Source of the DNA: Alphaproteobacteria bacterium
GTDB taxonomy: Bacteria; Pseudomonadota; Alphaproteobacteria; UBA7887
NCBI GenBank assembly: GCA_030739735.1
Contig: JASLYQ010000019.1
Span: 1-58,659, forward strand
Direction: 5' to 3'
DNA length: 58,659 bases
The position numbers were made by a program, and so were the translations under genes. Positions 236-16,764 of the stretch are shown here, piece by piece. Within the stretch, counting starts at the first letter, position 1. Every line of letters begins with the position of its first letter. The notes under the pieces were generated by a model. That model was not told where the DNA came from, searched no databases, and was given only the letters and a program-made list of their open reading frames with translations.

Positions 236-1552
236 TCAATCTAAAAACAACGCATCCACCTCATCCATCGTGCTTTTTGTGCGGGTGATGTAATCCGTCA
301 TCTTCTCCGTCTGTATCTGCCCATAGTGTTCTTCAATGTATTTCACACTGCACCCCATTACCTTGGACAAGGTGAAAACATCCACATTCCCCAGTTGCAA
401 TCTGTAAGTCGCATAAGTGTGCCGGAGTGAGTAGTAGGTGTAATCTTCTGGAAATTCTGTGATACCACTCTCTGCCCGTATCACATCCCACAGACGATAA
501 AGTGTCTTTTTGCTAACCGCCTCACTCGTATCAAAACCTGCAAAGACAAAATCCTGTGGATGCAGATGCTTGCTGTAGGTTTTGATGCGCCCAAAAATAT
601 CACCCCGCATCCCGATTGCTGTTCTGTCTTTCCTTACTTTGGACAGTTCTGCCGGGATACGAATATGGACATTTGGGTAGTTGGTTCTTTCATCAGTTGA
701 TGGTGGGGATTTCTTAACCTGCACAAAATTCCATTTAATGCGTCTTGCCTCGCCAAAACGCATACCAGTATTTGCAAGAATGAGAATGAAATCACGAACC
801 AACTGCCGTTCATACACTTCTCTTTCGTTGTCTAAATTCTTATGCCAGTTGCGTAGATAGGTATAGAGAACCCGATACTCTTCCCTTTGCATTGCATTAC
901 GGTATGCAACGATTTTCCTTATCTCACTCCACACTGGAATTTGGGACTGATTTGCATACCCCTTTTCCATTGCCCATTTGTACATATGACCAATGGTTGC
1001 CCTCTCATTGATGAGAGTCACATTTCGTACCTCTGGGTTTATCCTTTTTCGGTACGCATAATAATCTTTGTATTTGTGCCTCTGGATATTATCCAGTTTG
1101 GTATTCGCACCAACAAATTTTAATAGGTGCTTCACTTGGGATGAAATGGTTGTCCGCCTGCCTTGCGTTATAAAACCGCCATCAACCCTCTGTTGCTGGA
1201 ATTCCAAATATTCCTCAACACACCTACCCATCGTGATTGAAAATATCTTATTTCCAACTTCCTTCTGCCCCATCATTTGGTAGTAAATTTTCCGTGCTTT
1301 CTCCTTTGCTAAATCCAAATCTCTGGTACGCATGGATTTACGGAAATGCCTTTTCTCATCACTGACCCAGACACGCATCTGCCAAATTTGATTGGATTGC
1401 TTGGTGCGCATGAGTTTCACCGCACCGTCTAAAATCTCAACCTCTTGGGTATAGAATTCTGTCTTGGGATTTGATGCTGATGGTGGGTTTTCACCAAGTG
1501 CTAAATCACCGTGCATTTGTTCGTTTTGCGGTTCTGTACTCATGTGAATCAA
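236..1552 (-). CDS. Tyrosine recombinase / phage-type integrase
   Basis: This is a site-specific tyrosine recombinase of 438 residues, expected to integrate and excise the element whose end fills the left edge of the window. An N-terminal arm/core-binding region (about residues 45-190) precedes the catalytic domain. The first catalytic Arg lies in NTGMRFGEARR, the RHT box is at about 377-379 and the Tyr nucleophile at about 410 in EEHYGQ. The usual LGHS motif reads MGCS, so the second His is replaced by Cys; other integrases also vary here. The upstream-most start is TTG at 1552, with AAGGG four bases before it. An ATG at 1543 is possible but lies 13 bases from that Shine-Dalgarno. The gene is AT-rich, unlike the GC-rich neighbour guaA. 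It is transcribed in the same direction as guaA and lies just downstream of it, the usual layout for guaA-targeting islands. Confidence 0.92.
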   Translation of the reverse strand: MIHMSTEPQNEQMHGDLALGENPPSASNPKTEFYTQEVEILDGAVKLMRTKQSNQIWQMRVWVSDEKRHFRKSMRTRDLDLAKEKARKIYYQMMGQKEVGNKIFSITMGRCVEEYLEFQQQRVDGGFITQGRRTTISSQVKHLLKFVGANTKLDNIQRHKYKDYYAYRKRINPEVRNVTLINERATIGHMYKWAMEKGYANQSQIPVWSEIRKIVAYRNAMQREEYRVLYTYLRNWHKNLDNEREVYERQLVRDFILILANTGMRFGEARRIKWNFVQVKKSPPSTDERTNYPNVHIRIPAELSKVRKDRTAIGMRGDIFGRIKTYSKHLHPQDFVFAGFDTSEAVSKKTLYRLWDVIRAESGITEFPEDYTYYSLRHTYATYRLQLGNVDVFTLSKVMGCSVKYIEEHYGQIQTEKMTDYITRTKSTMDEVDALFLD

Positions 1553-1637: not shown

Positions 1638-1700
1638 TAAAAATTGTTAAGTAATTGTTTTTATTGACTATTATAAACTACGGATTACTCCCACTCGATC
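1632..1700. other. Putative att junction at guaA 3' end
   Basis: Base composition changes abruptly from AT-rich to GC-rich at the guaA stop codon (1685-1687). The integrase gene begins about 130 bp away. The 3' end of guaA is an established attachment site for genomic islands, so the crossover core should lie in the last bases of guaA. The duplicated core at the other end of the element is outside this window, so the exact core cannot be fixed. No terminator for guaA is visible here, which fits displacement of the native downstream sequence. Confidence 0.5.
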
Positions 1701-3238
1701 GTGCTCGGTGGCTTCGAGGTCACGTCGTAGACTACTCGGTTGACGCCGCGTACCTCGTTAACGATGCGGTTGGCGGTGCGCGTGAGGAAGCTGTGGTCGA
1801 AGGGGTAGGTGTCGGCCGTCATACCGTCGGTCGAGGTGACGGCGCGCAGCGCGCACACATGCTCGTAAGTACGCGCATCGCCCATCACACCGACGGTGCG
1901 CACCGGCAGCAATACGGCGAAGGCTTGCCAGATAGCGTCGTAAAGGCCAGCGGCACGGATCTCTTCAAGGTAGATGCGGTCAGCTTGGCGCAAGATCGTC
2001 GCGCGGTCTTCGGTCACCTCGCCGGGAATTCGGATGGCAAGCCCCGGCCCCGGGAAGGGGTGGCGGCCGAGCATGGTCTCGGGGAGTCCAAGCTCGCGGC
2101 CCAGCACACGCACCTCGTCCTTGAACAACTCGCGCAGGGGCTCAATAAGTTGCAAACGCATGCGTTCTGGCAGACCACCCACATTGTGGTGCGACTTGAT
2201 GGTATGACTCGGCCCGCCAGCAAACGAGACAGACTCGATAACGTCCGGGTAGAGCGTACCCTGGGCGAGAAAATCGGCACCGTTGATTTTGCCCGCCTCT
2301 TCCTCGAAGACATCGATGAAGGTGGCACCGATGATCTTGCGCTTGGCCTCCGGATCGGTGACGCCGGCGAGTTTGTCGAAGAATTGGGCAGCCGCATCCA
2401 CATGCACCAGCGGTGTGTTGAAACGGTCGCGGAACAACGTTTCCACCTCATTCGCCTCGCCTTCGCGCAACACGCCGGTATCAACGAAGACGCAGGTTAG
2501 GCGCGTGCCGATGGCCTCGTGGATCAACGCCGCAGCAACCGAGGAATCGACCCCGCCCGATAACCCGCAGATCACGCGCCCATCGCCCACCCGTTCACGA
2601 ATCATAGCCACTTGGGTATCGCGATAGGCCGCCATAGTCCAATCGCCGGCACAGCCGGCAACGGCATGGGTAAAGGCGCCGAGTAACGCCGTGCCGTACG
2701 GCGTGTGCACCACTTCTGGGTGGAACTGAACGCCGTAATAGCGGCGCGCATCGTCGGCGATCGCGGCAAAGGGCGCGCCCTCGGAGGTGGCTACGGCGCG
2801 GAAGCCTTGCGGAAGCTCGGCCACATGATCGCCGTGGCTCATCCAGACTTGCTCACGGTCGCCTTTTTCCCAGACACCATCGAACAGCGCACAGTCATCC
2901 ACGACATCGACGAAGGCGCGGCCAAACTCGCGATGCCCAGTTCCGACGACGCTGCCACCGAGTTGCTGCACCAAGGTCTGCTGACCGTAACAGATTCCAA
3001 GAACAGGGACGCCGAGTTTAAAGACGGATTCCGGCGCGCGGGGTGCGTTCTCCAACGTGACCGAGTCCGGGCCCCCGGAAAGAATGATCGCCCGTGGCGC
3101 CGCGCCAGTGAGCGCATCCGCCGCATTTTGGATAGGCACGATCTCGCAGTAAACACCGGATTCGCGGATACGGCGGGCGATAAGTTGGGTGACTTGGGAG
3201 CCAAAATCGATAATCAGGATACGGTCGGACACGGGCAA
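1685..3238 (-). CDS. guaA: GMP synthase (glutamine-hydrolysing)
   Basis: Converts XMP to GMP using ATP and glutamine in the cytoplasm, the last step of guanine nucleotide synthesis. At 517 residues it has the normal family length. A class I glutamine amidotransferase domain comes first, with the nucleophile Cys in GICYGQQ and the His in QFHPEV. The ATP-pyrophosphatase domain follows with the P-loop GLSGGVDSS, then the dimerisation domain ending in STIEWE. The start is non-canonical: TTG at 3238, with GAGG five bases upstream; GTG at 3232 is the alternative, and no ATG fits. The coding end appears intact despite the inserted element, as expected if the element restores the 3' end on integration. 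Confidence 0.97.
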
Positions 3239-3787
3239 TCAAGCCTCGGCTTCAAGGGCAACGCGCGACGGAGCAGAACTGCCCGTATCCCTTGGCTGTG
3301 AACATGGGCGAAACGTAGCCCGGGCGGACGCCCACACGCAACTACAGATTTGAAAGCTGAGTGCAGGCCACAATTGCAAGACCATTGGCGCAATGCCGTA
3401 CTGGCCACCGTAGAGAAAGCAACGCGAGTGACGGTCGACCTCCGCCGGCACGGTGCTGCCGGCCCTGTTAGTTTGCATCCACCACAAGAGCTCTGCTGGC
3501 AAGGCACTGCGGCAGAGCAGCGCCTTCTGTGTCAACCTCCAGGCCTCGAATCAGAGCATCTCTCAGTCTCCTTCAGCGGCCGTGGCACGGCAACAAGTTC
3601 GCGGCGGCGAACTGGACACCGGATATAACCGCTGCGCCACGGCTTATGGGAGCTCTCGCAACATTCGATTGCGCCGTGACGAATAGTCATAGTATCGGCA
3701 CGCATTTTATCATCTTCGAGGCCGCAGTTTCGCGGCTTGGATAGCACCCTTACTTTACGCGCGCGGCAGCTATCAGAAATTAGTAAC
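3239..3787. other. Gene-poor interval upstream of guaA
   Basis: About 550 bp with no gene I can support. The open frames here are short, overlap on both strands, lack good ribosome-binding sites and resemble no family I recognise. No tRNA-like fold or strong hairpin was seen. The guaA promoter should lie at its left end. Confidence 0.5.
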
Positions 3788-4504
3788 CTAAGCCCAGCCG
3801 CCCGAAAATGGTATGACCTGGGCCGTTATCCAGTCGGCGCGGTCGGATGCAAGAAACGCGACCAACGCGCCGAGCTCGTCGGGCTTGCCGAGACGGCCGA
3901 GCGGGATCGGGCGGACGATTTTCTTCAGCGTATCCGGATCGCCGACCACCTCGGACGGAAAATAATCTGGATTCTCAACATAGTTGGGTGCCACGGCATT
4001 GACCTGAATGTTATGCGGTCCGAGCTCCTTGGCAAAGGTTAGCACCATCGCGTTCGCCGCCCCACGCGCGGTCACATACATGGAATAGTTGGGTAGACCA
4101 TGAAACGGCGTTGCGGAGGTGACGAAGACGATCTTCCCTGCACTGCGCGCCTTCATACCGGACACCACGGCGGCGGCAAGAGCGTAGGGCGCCTCGACCA
4201 TTACCTCGAGCCCCGCCCGCATGTCGGCAGGATCCGCCTCTTCCACCTTGGCGCGGATGGCGGGAAAGGCATCATTGTTGATAAGCACGTCGATCTGGCC
4301 GTGGCTGCGTACGACCTCATCGACAATCGCCGCGGGTTCGCGCGCGGAGACCATGGCGAGGTCGGCCGGCAATGCACCCGCCGCCTCATCGCCAAGCGGT
4401 GCGCAACCGAGGACAATGGCGCCGTCCTCGGTTAACGCCCGCTTTACAGCCGGCCCGGCAAAGCGGCCAGGGTTGCTAAGTAAGACAATTCGTTTGTCAG
4501 ACAT
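3788..4504 (-). CDS. Halohydrin dehalogenase-like SDR protein
   Basis: A 238-residue protein of the short-chain dehydrogenase fold, but its key residues match halohydrin dehalogenases rather than NAD(P)-dependent reductases. The catalytic pattern is S-X12-Y-X3-R (Ser130, Tyr143, Arg147); ordinary SDRs have YxxxK. The N-terminal Gly-rich cofactor motif is replaced by S-X4-F-X-G (Ser10, Phe15, Gly17), close to the T-X4-F/Y-X-G pattern that forms the halide pocket in HheA/B/C enzymes. The local sequences TSATPF and PNY...DYFP also resemble HheC. Such enzymes turn vicinal haloalcohols into epoxides and release halide, without NAD. The start has a strong Shine-Dalgarno (GGGAGGAG). A NIPSNAP gene follows upstream on the same strand with a 33-bp gap. 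The activity is inferred from motifs; a generic divergent SDR is the alternative. Confidence 0.72.
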   Translation of the reverse strand: MSDKRIVLLSNPGRFAGPAVKRALTEDGAIVLGCAPLGDEAAGALPADLAMVSAREPAAIVDEVVRSHGQIDVLINNDAFPAIRAKVEEADPADMRAGLEVMVEAPYALAAAVVSGMKARSAGKIVFVTSATPFHGLPNYSMYVTARGAANAMVLTFAKELGPHNIQVNAVAPNYVENPDYFPSEVVGDPDTLKKIVRPIPLGRLGKPDELGALVAFLASDRADWITAQVIPFSGGWA

Positions 4505-4537: not shown

Positions 4538-4858
4538 CTATTCGACAGGATGGAAAGGTGCCGGGATCAAGATCTTCGATTCCATTTTTTTTAACATCGG
4601 CCGGACCTGCGGCGTAAACTCGATCCATTCCGGGCGCGAAGTCAGCTCGGCACGGCGCTCCGCGCGATCGTTGAGGCTGTCGTAGGCCCACATGTGAACG
4701 ATCTGGTTGAGTGGGCCGATGTCCGTATAAAAATAGCCGTATCTGTGACCCAGGATCTCTTTTTGCAAATCCACCACCGTGTTCTGATAGACTTTTAGCC
4801 ATTCGGGGTGACTACCGGGTTGCAGGTCATAAGTGCGCATCTCGACGATCTTCGACAT
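4538..4858 (-). CDS. NIPSNAP family protein
   Basis: A 106-residue protein of the NIPSNAP family (dimeric alpha/beta barrel fold). It opens with a typical IVEMRTYDLQPG and has the aromatic-rich core GYFYTDIGPLNQIVHMW. The start ATG at 4858 has GGGAGGA eight bases upstream; the longer frame to 4888 lacks a better site. The molecular function of bacterial NIPSNAP proteins is mostly unknown. Many sit beside degradation genes and are thought to bind or modify small hydrophobic compounds. It is transcribed just before the halohydrin dehalogenase-like gene, so the two probably form an operon. Confidence 0.88.
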   Translation of the reverse strand: MSKIVEMRTYDLQPGSHPEWLKVYQNTVVDLQKEILGHRYGYFYTDIGPLNQIVHMWAYDSLNDRAERRAELTSRPEWIEFTPQVRPMLKKMESKILIPAPFHPVE

Positions 4859-4971
4859 ATCGTAGGTCCTCCCTGGATTTTGTTTCACCGGTCACGATTT
4901 CAGCCGACTGGAGCCTTGTCAACGCGATCGGCGAAGGCTAAGAGCGCATGTCCCGAGCGAAGGAGAGCCCC

Positions 4972-5961
4972 ATGACCGAGACCTACAGGGCGTTGGTTGT
5001 CGACAAGGACGGCGACGGCGCATCGCTGGGCATCCAGGAACGACAAACGACAGACCTCCTAGGGGGTGACGTCACTATTCGCGTTGCCTATTCCAGCGTC
5101 AACTATAAGGACGGGCTGGCGACCCTGGCTAAAGGGGGGGTGGCGCGCAAGCACCCGCTGGTGCTCGGCATCGATCTCGCGGGAACGGTCGAGCGCTCGA
5201 GCGATTCGCGCTTCGCCACAGGCGACGAGGTCCTGGTCACCGGCTTCAATCTCGGCGTCGCCCATGATGGCGGCTTTGCCGAGTTGGCCAGGGTCCCGGG
5301 CGACTGGATCGTGGCCAAGCCCGACGGTCTGACTTTGCGGGAATGCATGGCGCTGGGGACAGCGGGCTTTACCGCTGCGCTGGCGATCCGTGAGCTGGAG
5401 GCGCGCGGCCTGGCCCCCGCTGCCGGTCCCGTTCTGGTCACCGGCGCCACCGGTGGCGTCGGCTCGCTTGCCGTCTCCATGCTGTCCCGGCTCGGCTATG
5501 ATATCGTCGCCTCGACCGGCAAGAGCGATGAGCACGACTACCTCCGCAGCCTGGGCGCAAGCACCATCCTCGACCGCGACGAGGTGTCGGCGGAGACCCG
5601 ACCGCTGGGTAAGGAGATCTATGCCGCCGCCATCGACCAGGTCGGCGGCACGACGCTGCCCTGGCTGCTTGCCCATCTGCGATATCGCGGCGCCGTAGCT
5701 TGCACAGGGCTCACCGGCGGGTTTGCCTATTCGTCGACCGTGCTGCCCCTGCTGCTACGCGGGGTCTCGATCCTGGGTATCGATTCGGTGATCTGCCCGA
5801 TGGCCGAGCGCCCCGATCTCTGGCAGCGCATGGCCGGTGAGATCAAGCCCGACAGCCTCGCCGAGACCATCGCCGTCGAGACCGACCTCGACGGCCTTCC
5901 GGAGGTGCTCAGCCGCATCCTCAAGGCCGAAATACGCGGCAGGACGGTGGTCAAGCTTTAG
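4972..5961 (+). CDS. acuI: Acryloyl-CoA reductase (NADPH), AcuI/YhdH type
   Basis: A 329-residue medium-chain dehydrogenase/reductase of the AcuI/YhdH group, which reduces acryloyl-CoA to propionyl-CoA with NADPH and so detoxifies or assimilates acrylate and 3-hydroxypropionate. Recognisable parts are the N-terminal SSVNYKDGLA, LGIDLAGTV, and the nucleotide-binding VTGATGGVGS. No structural zinc cysteine cluster is seen, as expected for this group. The ATG at 4972 is preceded by GGAGAG; an upstream ATG at 4948 lacks this. It is divergent from the NIPSNAP / dehalogenase pair. Its last 11 bases overlap the convergent gene that ends at 5951. The substrate is inferred from family resemblance. Confidence 0.88.
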   Translation: MTETYRALVVDKDGDGASLGIQERQTTDLLGGDVTIRVAYSSVNYKDGLATLAKGGVARKHPLVLGIDLAGTVERSSDSRFATGDEVLVTGFNLGVAHDGGFAELARVPGDWIVAKPDGLTLRECMALGTAGFTAALAIRELEARGLAPAAGPVLVTGATGGVGSLAVSMLSRLGYDIVASTGKSDEHDYLRSLGASTILDRDEVSAETRPLGKEIYAAAIDQVGGTTLPWLLAHLRYRGAVACTGLTGGFAYSSTVLPLLLRGVSILGIDSVICPMAERPDLWQRMAGEIKPDSLAETIAVETDLDGLPEVLSRILKAEIRGRTVVKL

Positions 5962-12282: not shown

Positions 12283-12688
12283 CACCCCCACTATTCGCGT
12301 GCTGATCGCCAAGGTCGGCCTCGACGGCCATGACCGCGGTGTCAAGGTCGTGGCGCGCTGCCTGCGCGATGCCGGCATGGACGTGATCTATACCGGCCTG
12401 CACCGCACCCCGGAAGAGACGGTGACTGCAGCGGTCCAAGAGGACGTCGACGTGCTCGGCATCAGCCTACTTTCGGGCGCGCACATGACCATCTTTCCGC
12501 GCATACTCGAGCTGCTGAAAGAAGCGGATGCCGACGACATTCTGCTCGTCGGCGGCGGCGTCATGCCCGACGAGGATATTCTCGCACTCAAAGACATAGG
12601 CGTCGCGGCGACCCTGCTGCAGGACACACCGCCGACGGTTATCGTCGAGACGATCCGCAATCTTGTCGCCGAACGAGGGGCGCGCTGA
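12275..12688 (+). CDS. hcmB: 2-Hydroxyisobutyryl-CoA mutase small (B12-binding) subunit
   Basis: A 137-residue free-standing cobalamin-binding domain. The DxHxxG motif (Asp17, His19, Gly22 in GLDGHDRG) supplies the His that coordinates cobalt. The SLLSGAH and [10 protein letters not shown] segments that hold the nucleotide tail are also present. In methylmalonyl-CoA mutases of most bacteria this domain is fused to the large subunit; a separate subunit is typical for HcmAB and IcmAB. It overlaps the regulator gene upstream and shares one base with the ligase gene downstream (TGATG). The Hcm assignment rests on the large subunit at the end of this operon. Confidence 0.9.
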
Positions 12689-14109
12689 TGGAAGACTGGC
12701 ATTTTCCCCCGTCCTATGATGAGACATATATGCCAGCAGCCGACGCCCGTCATTGGTTTCCTGAGCGAGAGTGCATGGATCCGGGTGCGCGTGACGCCGC
12801 CATCGTCATACGTTTGCGCGAGGTCATGGAACATGCTTGGAAGAACGCTCCTTTCTATCGCCGCAAGTGGGACGACGCGGGCGTACACCCCTCACACATC
12901 ACCTCGCTAGAGGCCTTCGAAAAAGTGCCCGTGGTGACCAAGGCCGACCTGCGCGCTGCGCAAGCCGCGCATCCGCCTTTCGGTGACTATCTTTGTATCC
13001 AACCGGACGATGTGCACCATATACACGGAACTTCTGGCACCACCGGCCGGCCGACCACCTTCGGCATCGGCCGCGACGACTGGCAGGCGACAGCGGACGC
13101 GCATGCGCGTATCCTTTGGGGCATGAGCGTGAGACCCGGCGACATACTGTTCGTCGCCGCCATCTTCTCGCTCTATCTGGGCTCCTGGGGGGCCATGCTG
13201 GGAGGTGAGCGGCTAGGCTGTCGCGTCTTCCCCTTCGGTGCCGGTGCCGGCGGCATGACGGCGCGCGCCGCATCCTGGCTCGATGCCGTAAAGCCGCAGG
13301 CCTTCTACGGCACGCCGTCCTATGCCCTGCACTTGGCAGAAGTAGCACGCGAGGAAGGCTACGAGCCGCGCGACTTCGGCCTCAAGGTGATGTTCTTCTC
13401 TGGTGAGCCCGGCGCCTCCATCCCCGGCGTGCGCGACCGCATCGCCGAAGCTTATGGCGCCACGGTCTTCGATTGCGGCACCATGGCCGAAATGATGCCA
13501 TTCATGAGCGCCGCCGGCAGCAAGGAGGCGAGCGAGGGCATGTTGCTGTGGCAGGACATCGTCTATCACGAGGTCTGCGACCCTGGGAGTTACGCCCGCG
13601 TGCCCTTTGGCAGCCGTGGCACGCCAGTCTATACTCACCTGGAGCGCACCTCCCAACCCATGATTCGTTTGCTGTCTAACGATCTTACCCACTGGGTCGA
13701 CGGCCCCAGCCCCTGTGGACGCACCTACCCGCGCTTACCCGATGGCGTCTACGGCCGAATCGACGATATGTTCCAGGTGCGTGGCGAAAACATCTATCCC
13801 TCCGAGATAGATGCCGTGCTCAACACCATCGACGGCTATGGCGGCGAGCACCGCATCATCATTAGCCGCGAAGGCGCCATGGACGAGCTACTGGTGCGGG
13901 TTGAGCCTAGCGAGGTGGCGGCACCCGATTTCGGCGAGCGCTGCGCCGCCGGCCTGCTCAGGGTGCTCGGCGTGCGTACCCAGGTGGAAGTGACAGACGC
14001 GGGCGAGTTCCCGCGCACGGACTTCAAAGCGCGCCGCGTGATCGACGACCGCCATTTGTTCCGCACGCTCGCCGCCAGCCTGGATGAGGGAGACAAGGAT
14101 GGTGCCTGA
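12688..14109 (+). CDS. hcl: Acyl-CoA ligase, probable 2-hydroxyisobutyryl-CoA synthetase
   Basis: A 473-residue AMP-forming CoA ligase of the phenylacetate-CoA ligase (PaaK) branch. The ATP-binding loop GTSGTTGRPT is at 114-123, and YGRIDDMFQVRGENIYPSEID (in parts: YGRIDDMFQVRG, NIYPSEID) marks the hinge and C-terminal domain. It would activate a short hydroxy acid to its CoA ester for the mutase encoded two genes downstream. In characterised 2-hydroxyisobutyrate degraders a ligase named Hcl is clustered with hcmA, hcmB and meaH, which is the set seen here. The start overlaps the hcmB stop (TGATG). The substrate is inferred from context; the family itself is broad. Confidence 0.85.
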   Translation: MEDWHFPPSYDETYMPAADARHWFPERECMDPGARDAAIVIRLREVMEHAWKNAPFYRRKWDDAGVHPSHITSLEAFEKVPVVTKADLRAAQAAHPPFGDYLCIQPDDVHHIHGTSGTTGRPTTFGIGRDDWQATADAHARILWGMSVRPGDILFVAAIFSLYLGSWGAMLGGERLGCRVFPFGAGAGGMTARAASWLDAVKPQAFYGTPSYALHLAEVAREEGYEPRDFGLKVMFFSGEPGASIPGVRDRIAEAYGATVFDCGTMAEMMPFMSAAGSKEASEGMLLWQDIVYHEVCDPGSYARVPFGSRGTPVYTHLERTSQPMIRLLSNDLTHWVDGPSPCGRTYPRLPDGVYGRIDDMFQVRGENIYPSEIDAVLNTIDGYGGEHRIIISREGAMDELLVRVEPSEVAAPDFGERCAAGLLRVLGVRTQVEVTDAGEFPRTDFKARRVIDDRHLFRTLAASLDEGDKDGA

Positions 14110-15064
14110 CGACGCCTTGGCGCTCGTGCCACGTTTGCTGGCCGGCGAGACCCGCGCCATTGCGCGGCTCATGACCTGCGCCGAGACCGGCAACGACGCC
14201 AGCCGCCCAGCCCTCGCGCAGGCCTATGCCCATGGTGGGCGCGCTCATGTCATCGGGCTCACCGGCGTGCCTGGCTGCGGCAAGTCGACGCTAGTCCGGG
14301 CGCTCACCGTCGCCTTGCGCGAGCGGGGGCGCAAGGTCGGGGTGGTCGCGATCGATCCCTCAAGCCCATTCTCCGGCGGTGCCATTCTCGGCGACCGCAT
14401 CCGCATGGCCGATATCGCCGGCGATCCCGGTATCTTCATCCGCTCCATGGCCTCGCGCGGAGCCTTGGGTGGGCTCGCCCGCACAAGCCTCGACGCGGTG
14501 GACCTGCTTGATGCGGCAGGCTTCGATCCAGTCATCATCGAGACCGTCGGTGTAGGCCAGGACGAAGTGGAAATCGTACACGTCGCCGATACCACGGTGG
14601 TGGTCTCCGCCCCCGGTCTCGGCGACGACATCCAGGCCATCAAAGCGGGTGTCTTGGAGATCGCCGACATCCACATGGTGAGCAAGGGCGACCGGCCGGA
14701 CGCCGACAAGACCGTGGCCGAACTCAAACAAATGCTGATGTTGGGCGAGTTGAAACAAGAAGGCTGGGCAGTGCCAGTGCTGGCAACTAGCGCGCTGACC
14801 GGCCACGGCATCGACAAACTGCTCGGCCTGATTGATGCCCACCGCACCCATCTCCAGGACAGCGGCACGCTAGCGGCGCGGCGGCGGCGCAGCGCCGAGA
14901 CCCGCACCCTCAAGATCGCCGAAGGCATCATCCGTGGGCGCTACGCCGCCGGACGCGGGGCCGAGGCACAGGCAATCATCGACCGCGTTAGCGCGCGGAA
15001 GTTGGACCCACACGGGGCAGCCCTGGCATTGTTAGACATTCTCAACCAGGGAAACACAGCATGA
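14099..15064 (+). CDS. meaH: MeaB/ArgK-type G-protein chaperone of the mutase
   Basis: A 321-residue SIMIBI-class GTPase that guards B12-dependent acyl-CoA mutases by gating cofactor loading and release. The P-loop GVPGCGKST is at 56-64, followed by DPSSPFSGGAILGDRIRM (18 residues) and ETVGVGQDE, both signatures of the MeaB/ArgK family. The guanine-specificity motif usually read as NKAD appears here as SKGD, a small departure. The start ATG at 14099 overlaps the end of the ligase gene by 11 bases and has AGGGAG upstream. Its stop overlaps the hcmA start by four bases (ATGA). The symbol follows the equivalent gene of known hcm clusters. Confidence 0.9.
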   Translation: MVPDDALALVPRLLAGETRAIARLMTCAETGNDASRPALAQAYAHGGRAHVIGLTGVPGCGKSTLVRALTVALRERGRKVGVVAIDPSSPFSGGAILGDRIRMADIAGDPGIFIRSMASRGALGGLARTSLDAVDLLDAAGFDPVIIETVGVGQDEVEIVHVADTTVVVSAPGLGDDIQAIKAGVLEIADIHMVSKGDRPDADKTVAELKQMLMLGELKQEGWAVPVLATSALTGHGIDKLLGLIDAHRTHLQDSGTLAARRRRSAETRTLKIAEGIIRGRYAAGRGAEAQAIIDRVSARKLDPHGAALALLDILNQGNTA

Positions 15065-16764
15065 CCAAGGCGAGCGCTATTCCCGACGGCATGGCTTTGG
15101 AGCAGCTTGAACAGGCCTGCGCCGAGTGGGAGCGCGAGGACGTGGCGGCCTTCTTGGCGCGCCAGCCCGAGTCGCGAAACAGCTATCACACTACCTCGGG
15201 CTTCGACCTCAAGCGCACCTATACGGCACTCGACGTGGCCGACACACCACTCAATGATATCGGCCTGCCGGGGCGCTATCCCTTCACCCGCGGCCCATAC
15301 CCGACCATGTATCGTGGTCGCCTCTGGACCATGCGTCAGATTGCCGGCTTCGGCACGGGCGAGGACACAAATGCGCGCTTCCGTTATTTGCTCACGCAAG
15401 GCCAGAGCGGATTGTCGACCGATTTCGATATGCCGACGCTGATGGGCTACGACTCTGACCACGCTATGAGCCACGGCGAGGTTGGCCGCGAGGGCGTGGC
15501 GATCGATACCATCGACGACATGGAAAAGCTTTTCGACGGCATCGATCTAACCAAGATCTCTGTCTCGCTGACCATCAATCCGAGCGCCTGGGTGCTCTAT
15601 GCCATGTATATCGCGTTGGGCAAACGCCGCTGCTACGATCTGAACGACCTTTCAGGCACCATCCAGGCGGACATCCTCAAGGAATACATCGCACAGAAGG
15701 AATGGATCTATCCGATCCGCCCCTCGGTACGCCTGGTTCGCGACTGTATCGCCTATGGCGCCCGCCACATGCGCCGCTACAACCCGGTCAACATCTCCGG
15801 CTACCACATCTCCGAAGCCGGCGCGACGCCCGTACAGGAAGCCGCTTTCACCATGGCCAACACCATCGCCTACGTGGAGGAGGTGGTGGCCTCAGGCCTG
15901 TCGGTGGACGAATTTGCGCCACGTCTTTCGTTCTTCTTCGTCAGTCAGGCGGACATGTTCGAGGAGGTGGCGAAGTTCCGCGCCCTGCGCCGCGTCTATG
16001 CCAAGATCATGAAGACACGCTTCGGCGCACAAAAGGCAGAATCGATGCGGCTCCGCTTCCACGCCCAGACGGCAGCGGCAACGCTGACCAAGCCGCAATA
16101 CCAGGTGAATTTGGTACGCACCGCCTACCAGGCTCTCGCTGCCGTGCTGGGGGGTTGCCAGAGCCTGCACACCAACGGCATGGACGAGGCATTCACCATC
16201 CCCACCGAAGAAGCCATGCGGCTCGCACTGCGCACTCAGCAGGTGATGGCGGACGAGAGCAACATCACCGCCGTAGTCGATCCATTAGGTGGCTCATATT
16301 ATGTTGAACATTTGACTACGCGTATGGAGCGTGAGATCTTCGCCATCCTCGCCAAGGTCGATGATATGGGTGGCGCCATCAAGGCCATCGAGGCCGGTTG
16401 GTTTCAACGCGAGATCGCCGATTCGGCTTATGCTGAGGCGCTGAGGCGAGAGAGCGGCGAGCAGACCGTGATCGGCATCAATAAATATGTCGAGACCGAT
16501 GAGGCCGACCCCGGAATCGAGGTCCACCCGTACGACCCCGAGACCGAACGCCACCAGATCGCCGCCCTGCACAAGACCCGCGCCGAGCGTGACAACGCAA
16601 AGGTGGAAGCGCTGATGCAGAAGCTACGCGAGGTGGCGACGGACGAAGCAGCGAACATCATGCCCGTTACCATAGAACTTGCCGAGGCCCGAGCGTCGAT
16701 GGGCGAGATCGTCGAGTGTCTGAAGGAAATGTGGGGTGGCTATCGCGAGGTGCCGGTTTTTTGA
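15061..16764 (+). CDS. hcmA: 2-Hydroxyisobutyryl-CoA mutase large subunit
   Basis: A 567-residue TIM-barrel catalytic subunit of a coenzyme B12-dependent acyl-CoA mutase, lacking the fused B12 domain. Two residues set the substrate. The active-site Tyr of methylmalonyl-CoA mutase (RQYAGF) is Ile94 here (MRQIAGFG), and the Ala of SVAFDLPT is Asp121 (STDFDMPT). Ile and Asp at these positions, 27 apart, are the hallmarks of HcmA (Ile90/Asp117), which interconverts 2-hydroxyisobutyryl-CoA and (S)-3-hydroxybutyryl-CoA. The C-terminus GGYREVPVF also fits. The gene ends the operon. The product would enter central metabolism as 3-hydroxybutyryl-CoA. A related short-branched mutase is the alternative; methylmalonyl-CoA mutase is unlikely. 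Confidence 0.93.
   Translation: MTKASAIPDGMALEQLEQACAEWEREDVAAFLARQPESRNSYHTTSGFDLKRTYTALDVADTPLNDIGLPGRYPFTRGPYPTMYRGRLWTMRQIAGFGTGEDTNARFRYLLTQGQSGLSTDFDMPTLMGYDSDHAMSHGEVGREGVAIDTIDDMEKLFDGIDLTKISVSLTINPSAWVLYAMYIALGKRRCYDLNDLSGTIQADILKEYIAQKEWIYPIRPSVRLVRDCIAYGARHMRRYNPVNISGYHISEAGATPVQEAAFTMANTIAYVEEVVASGLSVDEFAPRLSFFFVSQADMFEEVAKFRALRRVYAKIMKTRFGAQKAESMRLRFHAQTAAATLTKPQYQVNLVRTAYQALAAVLGGCQSLHTNGMDEAFTIPTEEAMRLALRTQQVMADESNITAVVDPLGGSYYVEHLTTRMEREIFAILAKVDDMGGAIKAIEAGWFQREIADSAYAEALRRESGEQTVIGINKYVETDEADPGIEVHPYDPETERHQIAALHKTRAERDNAKVEALMQKLREVATDEAANIMPVTIELAEARASMGEIVECLKEMWGGYREVPVF

Follow-up and report, generated by a model that had tools for sequence, protein, structure and literature searches.

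A probable A/C-type halohydrin dehalogenase encoded next to NIPSNAP and YhdH/AcuI-family genes in an alphaproteobacterial contig

Halohydrin dehalogenases (HHDHs) interconvert halogenated alcohols and epoxides and are used for making chiral epoxides and beta-substituted alcohols. Automatic annotation conceals these enzymes among the SDR proteins. The locus analyzed here, near the start of a 58,659-nucleotide alphaproteobacterial contig (the whole stretch of DNA that was analyzed, referred to below as the window), raises the question of whether one of its genes encodes an ordinary SDR oxidoreductase or, as a preliminary description had proposed, a new member of the HHDH family, and what reaction such an enzyme might serve. 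The relevant features are listed below, with the start codon at position 4504 as the reference point for the motif 1 coordinates.

3788 to 4504, minus strand: predicted HHDH of the A/C-type clade, 238 amino acids (sequence search, trees, and model)
4454 to 4477, minus strand: motif 1, SNPGRFAG (S-x4-F-x-G), codons 10 to 17, replacing the NAD(P) glycine-rich loop
4064 to 4117, minus strand: motif 2, SATPFHGLPNYSMYVTAR, codons 130 to 147 with Ser130, Tyr143, and Arg147 (sequence and aligned relatives)
3956 to 3988, minus strand: PNYVENPDYFP, predicted halide-pocket loop, codons 173 to 183 with N174, Y175, Y181, and F182 (aligned relatives and HheC positions)
4538 to 4858, minus strand: NIPSNAP-family protein, 106 amino acids (Pfam PF07978, E 3e-30)
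4948 to 5961, plus strand: oxidoreductase of the YhdH/AcuI (acrylyl-CoA reductase) family, divergently oriented and probably starting at 4972 (TIGR02823)

Signature residues and predicted structure

The HHDH open reading frame begins with an ATG codon preceded by a ribosome-binding-like sequence, GGGAGGAG; a scan for promoters and terminators revealed no convincing sites. The motifs listed in the preliminary description are all present in the translation with correct numbering: Ser130, Tyr143, and Arg147 form an S-x12-Y-x3-R triad, S10, F15, and G17 form the S-x4-F-x-G motif at residues 10 to 17, where the glycine loop TGxxxGxG is absent, and the TSATPF (129 to 134), PNY (173 to 175), and DYFP (180 to 183) stretches are in place. 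The query thus lacks the classical signature of NAD(P)-dependent SDRs, which combines that loop with Y-x3-K. These residues are no chance matches, since an alignment of 36 relatives shows S130, Y143, R147, N174, Y181, F182, and P183 to be invariant and F15 and G17 to be nearly so.

In the alignment with HheC, the query is identical at F12, G14, D80, S132, Y145, R149, P175, N176, and Y177. At the HheC positions T7, F12, G14, N79, D80, S132, Y145, R149, P175, N176, Y177, and Y187, the corresponding query residues are S, F, G, N, D, S, Y, R, P, N, Y, and F, respectively, the final Phe being shared with HheA2, HheB, and HheD2, whereas the first ten are T, G, G, N, A, S, Y, K, P, and G in three ordinary SDRs from the genome of the query. 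Judged by this alignment, the predicted halide-pocket residues are kept in the query.

An AlphaFold model, built with an input of 36 sequences (one plasmid-collection row was left out), had a pLDDT of 90.1 and a pTM of 0.89, and its best structural matches were the "dehalogenation enzyme" 6a41 (Z 32.4, 1.9 Å) followed by HheC mutants (Z 30.7). Because the Z-scores of HHDHs (30 to 32) and ordinary SDRs (29 to 30) are barely apart, the fold alone does not decide between them, and the model goes no further than being consistent with the assignment.

By analogy with characterized HHDHs, Arg147 would lower the pKa of Tyr143, which would remove the hydroxyl proton from a vicinal halohydrin whose oxygen is held by Ser130; the alkoxide would then displace the halide to yield an epoxide, and the halide would lie next to Phe15 and the PNY...YF loop, in the position taken by NAD(P) in SDRs. 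In the reverse direction, the epoxide would be opened by halide, azide, cyanide, nitrite, or similar anions.

Placement among halohydrin dehalogenases and SDRs

In a phmmer search against all solved structures in the PDB, the top match was 6a41 (E 5e-63, 216 bits, ~47% identity), followed by HheC (131 to 134 bits), HheA and HheA2 (~126 bits), and HheD2 (121 bits), with HheD8 also placed ahead of HheB (~88 bits); the best ordinary SDR scored ~85 bits.

Two trees were built with reference sequences taken from PDB chains or confirmed against them. The first included HheA, HheA2, HheB, HheC, HheD2, HheD8 (8xxb, a triple mutant), HheG, and 6a41, together with the haloalcohol dehalogenase from a Microbacterium plasmid (L101), 32 dereplicated relatives, and 14 ordinary SDRs. 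With all columns used, the query fell in the A/C clade (SH-aLRT 98) and the SDRs lay across a branch with a support of 98. In the second, more careful tree, six SDRs from the genome of the query were added and both motif regions were removed; the split between HHDHs and SDRs was recovered with 99/90 and the A/C clade, including the query, with 98/94. HheG has a very long branch and an uncertain placement, and the position of the query inside the A/C clade does not settle the branching order that would distinguish subtype A (HheA versus HheC). The grouping of the query with HheA, HheA2, and HheC, away from ordinary SDRs, bears out the family proposed in the preliminary description, as do the search, the pocket residues, and the predicted structure.

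An ordinary NAD(P)-dependent SDR whose glycine-rich loop and Lys had been lost by drift would have the overall SDR fold seen here, and the top NCBIfam matches of the query are indeed SDR oxidoreductase models only, although all of them score far below their own cut-offs, a result that fits the annotation of such genes as SDRs. In the query, however, the loop and the Lys are replaced jointly with halide-pocket residues in a combination that is conserved in dozens of relatives, and the query still groups with the HHDHs once the motif columns are removed from the tree, so that drift from an ordinary SDR appears highly improbable. Family membership and the active-site residues are backed by sequence, tree, and model, and we put at about 90% the probability that the query is a cofactor-independent HHDH of the A/C-type clade, its reaction being that expected from the characterized relatives.

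Serine in motif 1 and distribution of the family

The published mining pattern, T-x4-F/Y-x-G, begins with Thr, where the query has Ser, a deviation that the preliminary description had entered as a caveat. Read literally, the query departs from the pattern at this residue, but the substitution probably does not count against an HHDH. The closest orthologue, which comes from a second genus of the same family and is 67% identical to the query, has T-x4-F-x-G, so that Ser has probably arisen recently in the lineage of the query. In saturation mutagenesis of HheC and HheG, Ser was the only residue that could take the place of this Thr in both enzymes, giving the active mutants T7S and T13S, and two natural HHDHs vary at this position (PMC11976700). 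The HheC T7S mutant had a kcat on 1,3-dichloro-2-propanol of 1.37 versus 1.84 per second and a higher enantioselectivity in the azidolysis of epichlorohydrin (E 57 versus 22) (PMC11976700). Given the Thr of the orthologue, the active Ser mutants, and the natural variants, the motif 1 Thr is not strictly defining for HHDHs. The Ser of the query corresponds to the T7S mutation with its higher enantioselectivity, and the existence of a natural Ser-motif enzyme indicates that a pattern allowing Thr only, and Phe or Tyr only, overlooks likely members.

Among 80 relatives listed from named public genomes, motif 1 takes the form T-x4-F in 73, T-x4-W in 4, S-x4-F in 1 (L025), and M-x4-F in 1 (L061), and the remaining one (L051) has lost its N-terminus, and motif 1 with it, at a contig end. 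The T-x4-W-x-G subgroup consists of L033, L034, L036, and L039, with a Trp in place of the Phe or Tyr permitted by the published pattern; L036 carries the label "Candidatus Kuenenia" and is probably a mis-binned contig. In L061 (positions 2692 to 3408), Met replaces Thr (MNVKKFIG) and the S-Y-R triad is intact.

The S-x12-Y-x3-R triad is found in all 80 listed relatives, which makes the query one of a large alphaproteobacterial group. Within the family and order searches, an HHDH gene was found in 2 of 9 genomes, the second genome (L021/L002) being the only other one of the family that has it. One genome (G035) encodes, besides an A/C-type HHDH, a second HHDH-like protein of the B/D type (L127, positions 1 to 1101; contig C91) with the motif 1 sequence TCADIYMG and an S-Y-R triad. 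The HHDH of the window is a genuine but ordinary addition to a known family that is widespread in related alphaproteobacteria.

Genomic neighborhood, possible role, and closest known systems

The NIPSNAP gene precedes the HHDH gene on the same strand, its stop codon being separated from the HHDH ATG by 33 nucleotides, and is a probable operon partner, presumably co-transcribed. The divergent gene had been named acuI. Its divergent position stands and it passes TIGR02823 (YhdH type; 427 bits, cut-off 297), but it scores 360 against the AcuI equivalog model NF051456, below the cut-off of 440, so that acuI holds as a family-level name only. Elsewhere in the window, a tyrosine-recombinase-like ORF (236 to 1552, minus strand; Pfam Phage_integrase, E 3e-9) lies near the contig start, next to an ORF (1685 to 3238) that we take from its sequence to be guaA-like, and this region is possibly the edge of an integrated element. 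A PaaK-like CoA ligase gene and a gene for a methylmalonyl-CoA mutase N-terminal domain share the plus strand at 12688 to 16764.

The NIPSNAP and AcuI-type neighbors bear on a reading in which the protein has the ancestry and active site of an HHDH but its physiological reaction is the removal of epoxides through ring opening by another anion (nitrite, cyanide, or thiocyanate), or else some other conversion of a natural intermediate, within a pathway that also involves the NIPSNAP protein and the AcuI-type reductase. The NIPSNAP-HHDH pair and the divergent AcuI-type gene are kept in the second genus (L021/L002). A Pfam search of the genome, with alpha/beta-hydrolase-fold types that lack EHN outside its scope, gave no EHN or LEH match, and in the absence of an EHN- or limonene-type epoxide hydrolase there is no obvious partner pathway, a point against the HHDH assignment. 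In the literature, only two known HHDH genes adjoin an epoxide hydrolase, and other physiological functions have been considered conceivable (PMC4989007). In contrast, a sister genus has close relatives of the NIPSNAP gene (55 to 59% identity) in four genomes, G004, G006, G007, and G008, in which no HHDH was found. There, an AcuI-type gene adjoins NIPSNAP divergently in G007, G004 has only a short reading frame resembling an AcuI-type N-terminus beside it, and G006 and G008 have a different long reading frame on that side. Across the 80 HHDH relatives no conserved neighborhood was found, the neighbors being lineage specific; those in Sneathiella are presumably purK and purE genes, to go by their sequences. 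With varying neighbors and NIPSNAP genes that occur without HHDH, the link may be incidental, and a search for papers linking NIPSNAP and dehalogenases returned no relevant title. A functional link of HHDH with these two genes is possible, and a different physiological reaction is conceivable but less likely than not; such a reaction would in any case allow for HHDH activity in vitro, and this reading partly coincides with the assignment to the A/C-type HHDHs that we prefer.

A broader proposal, which we regard as quite unlikely, is that alphaproteobacterial A/C-type HHDHs serve a pathway other than the degradation of man-made halohydrins, for example one in which a natural epoxide or halohydrin intermediate is handled with NIPSNAP and an AcuI-type reductase, and that the motif 1 variants (Ser in the query, Trp in some relatives) tune the choice of anion. 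The broad set of alphaproteobacterial HHDH genes offers a route towards the natural role of these enzymes.

The closest known system, by both sequence and structure, is 6a41, which its depositors called "dehalogenation enzyme"; a literature search found no paper on it. This protein shares with the query the triad, the aromatic residue in motif 1, N174/Y175, and the YF pocket residues, but has Thr in motif 1 and Ser in place of Pro173, and it forms a long branch of its own with Reyranella-type sequences, being very close to such proteins as L057. Parvibaculum lavamentivorans and Tistrella mobilis are both alphaproteobacteria. Each is the source of a characterized A-type HHDH, HheA3 and HheA5, respectively (PMC4989007). 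These two enzymes, absent from our trees, may belong to the same alphaproteobacterial group as the query. HheC from Agrobacterium radiobacter AD1 (1pwx) shares the A/C clade and nine pocket residues with the query at ~36% identity, but the query has Phe for Tyr187 and Ser for Thr7 and lacks the C-terminal extension. HheA and HheA2 (4z9f and 1zmo), at ~35% identity, resemble the query in their A/C clade membership, compact C-terminus, and YFP loop.
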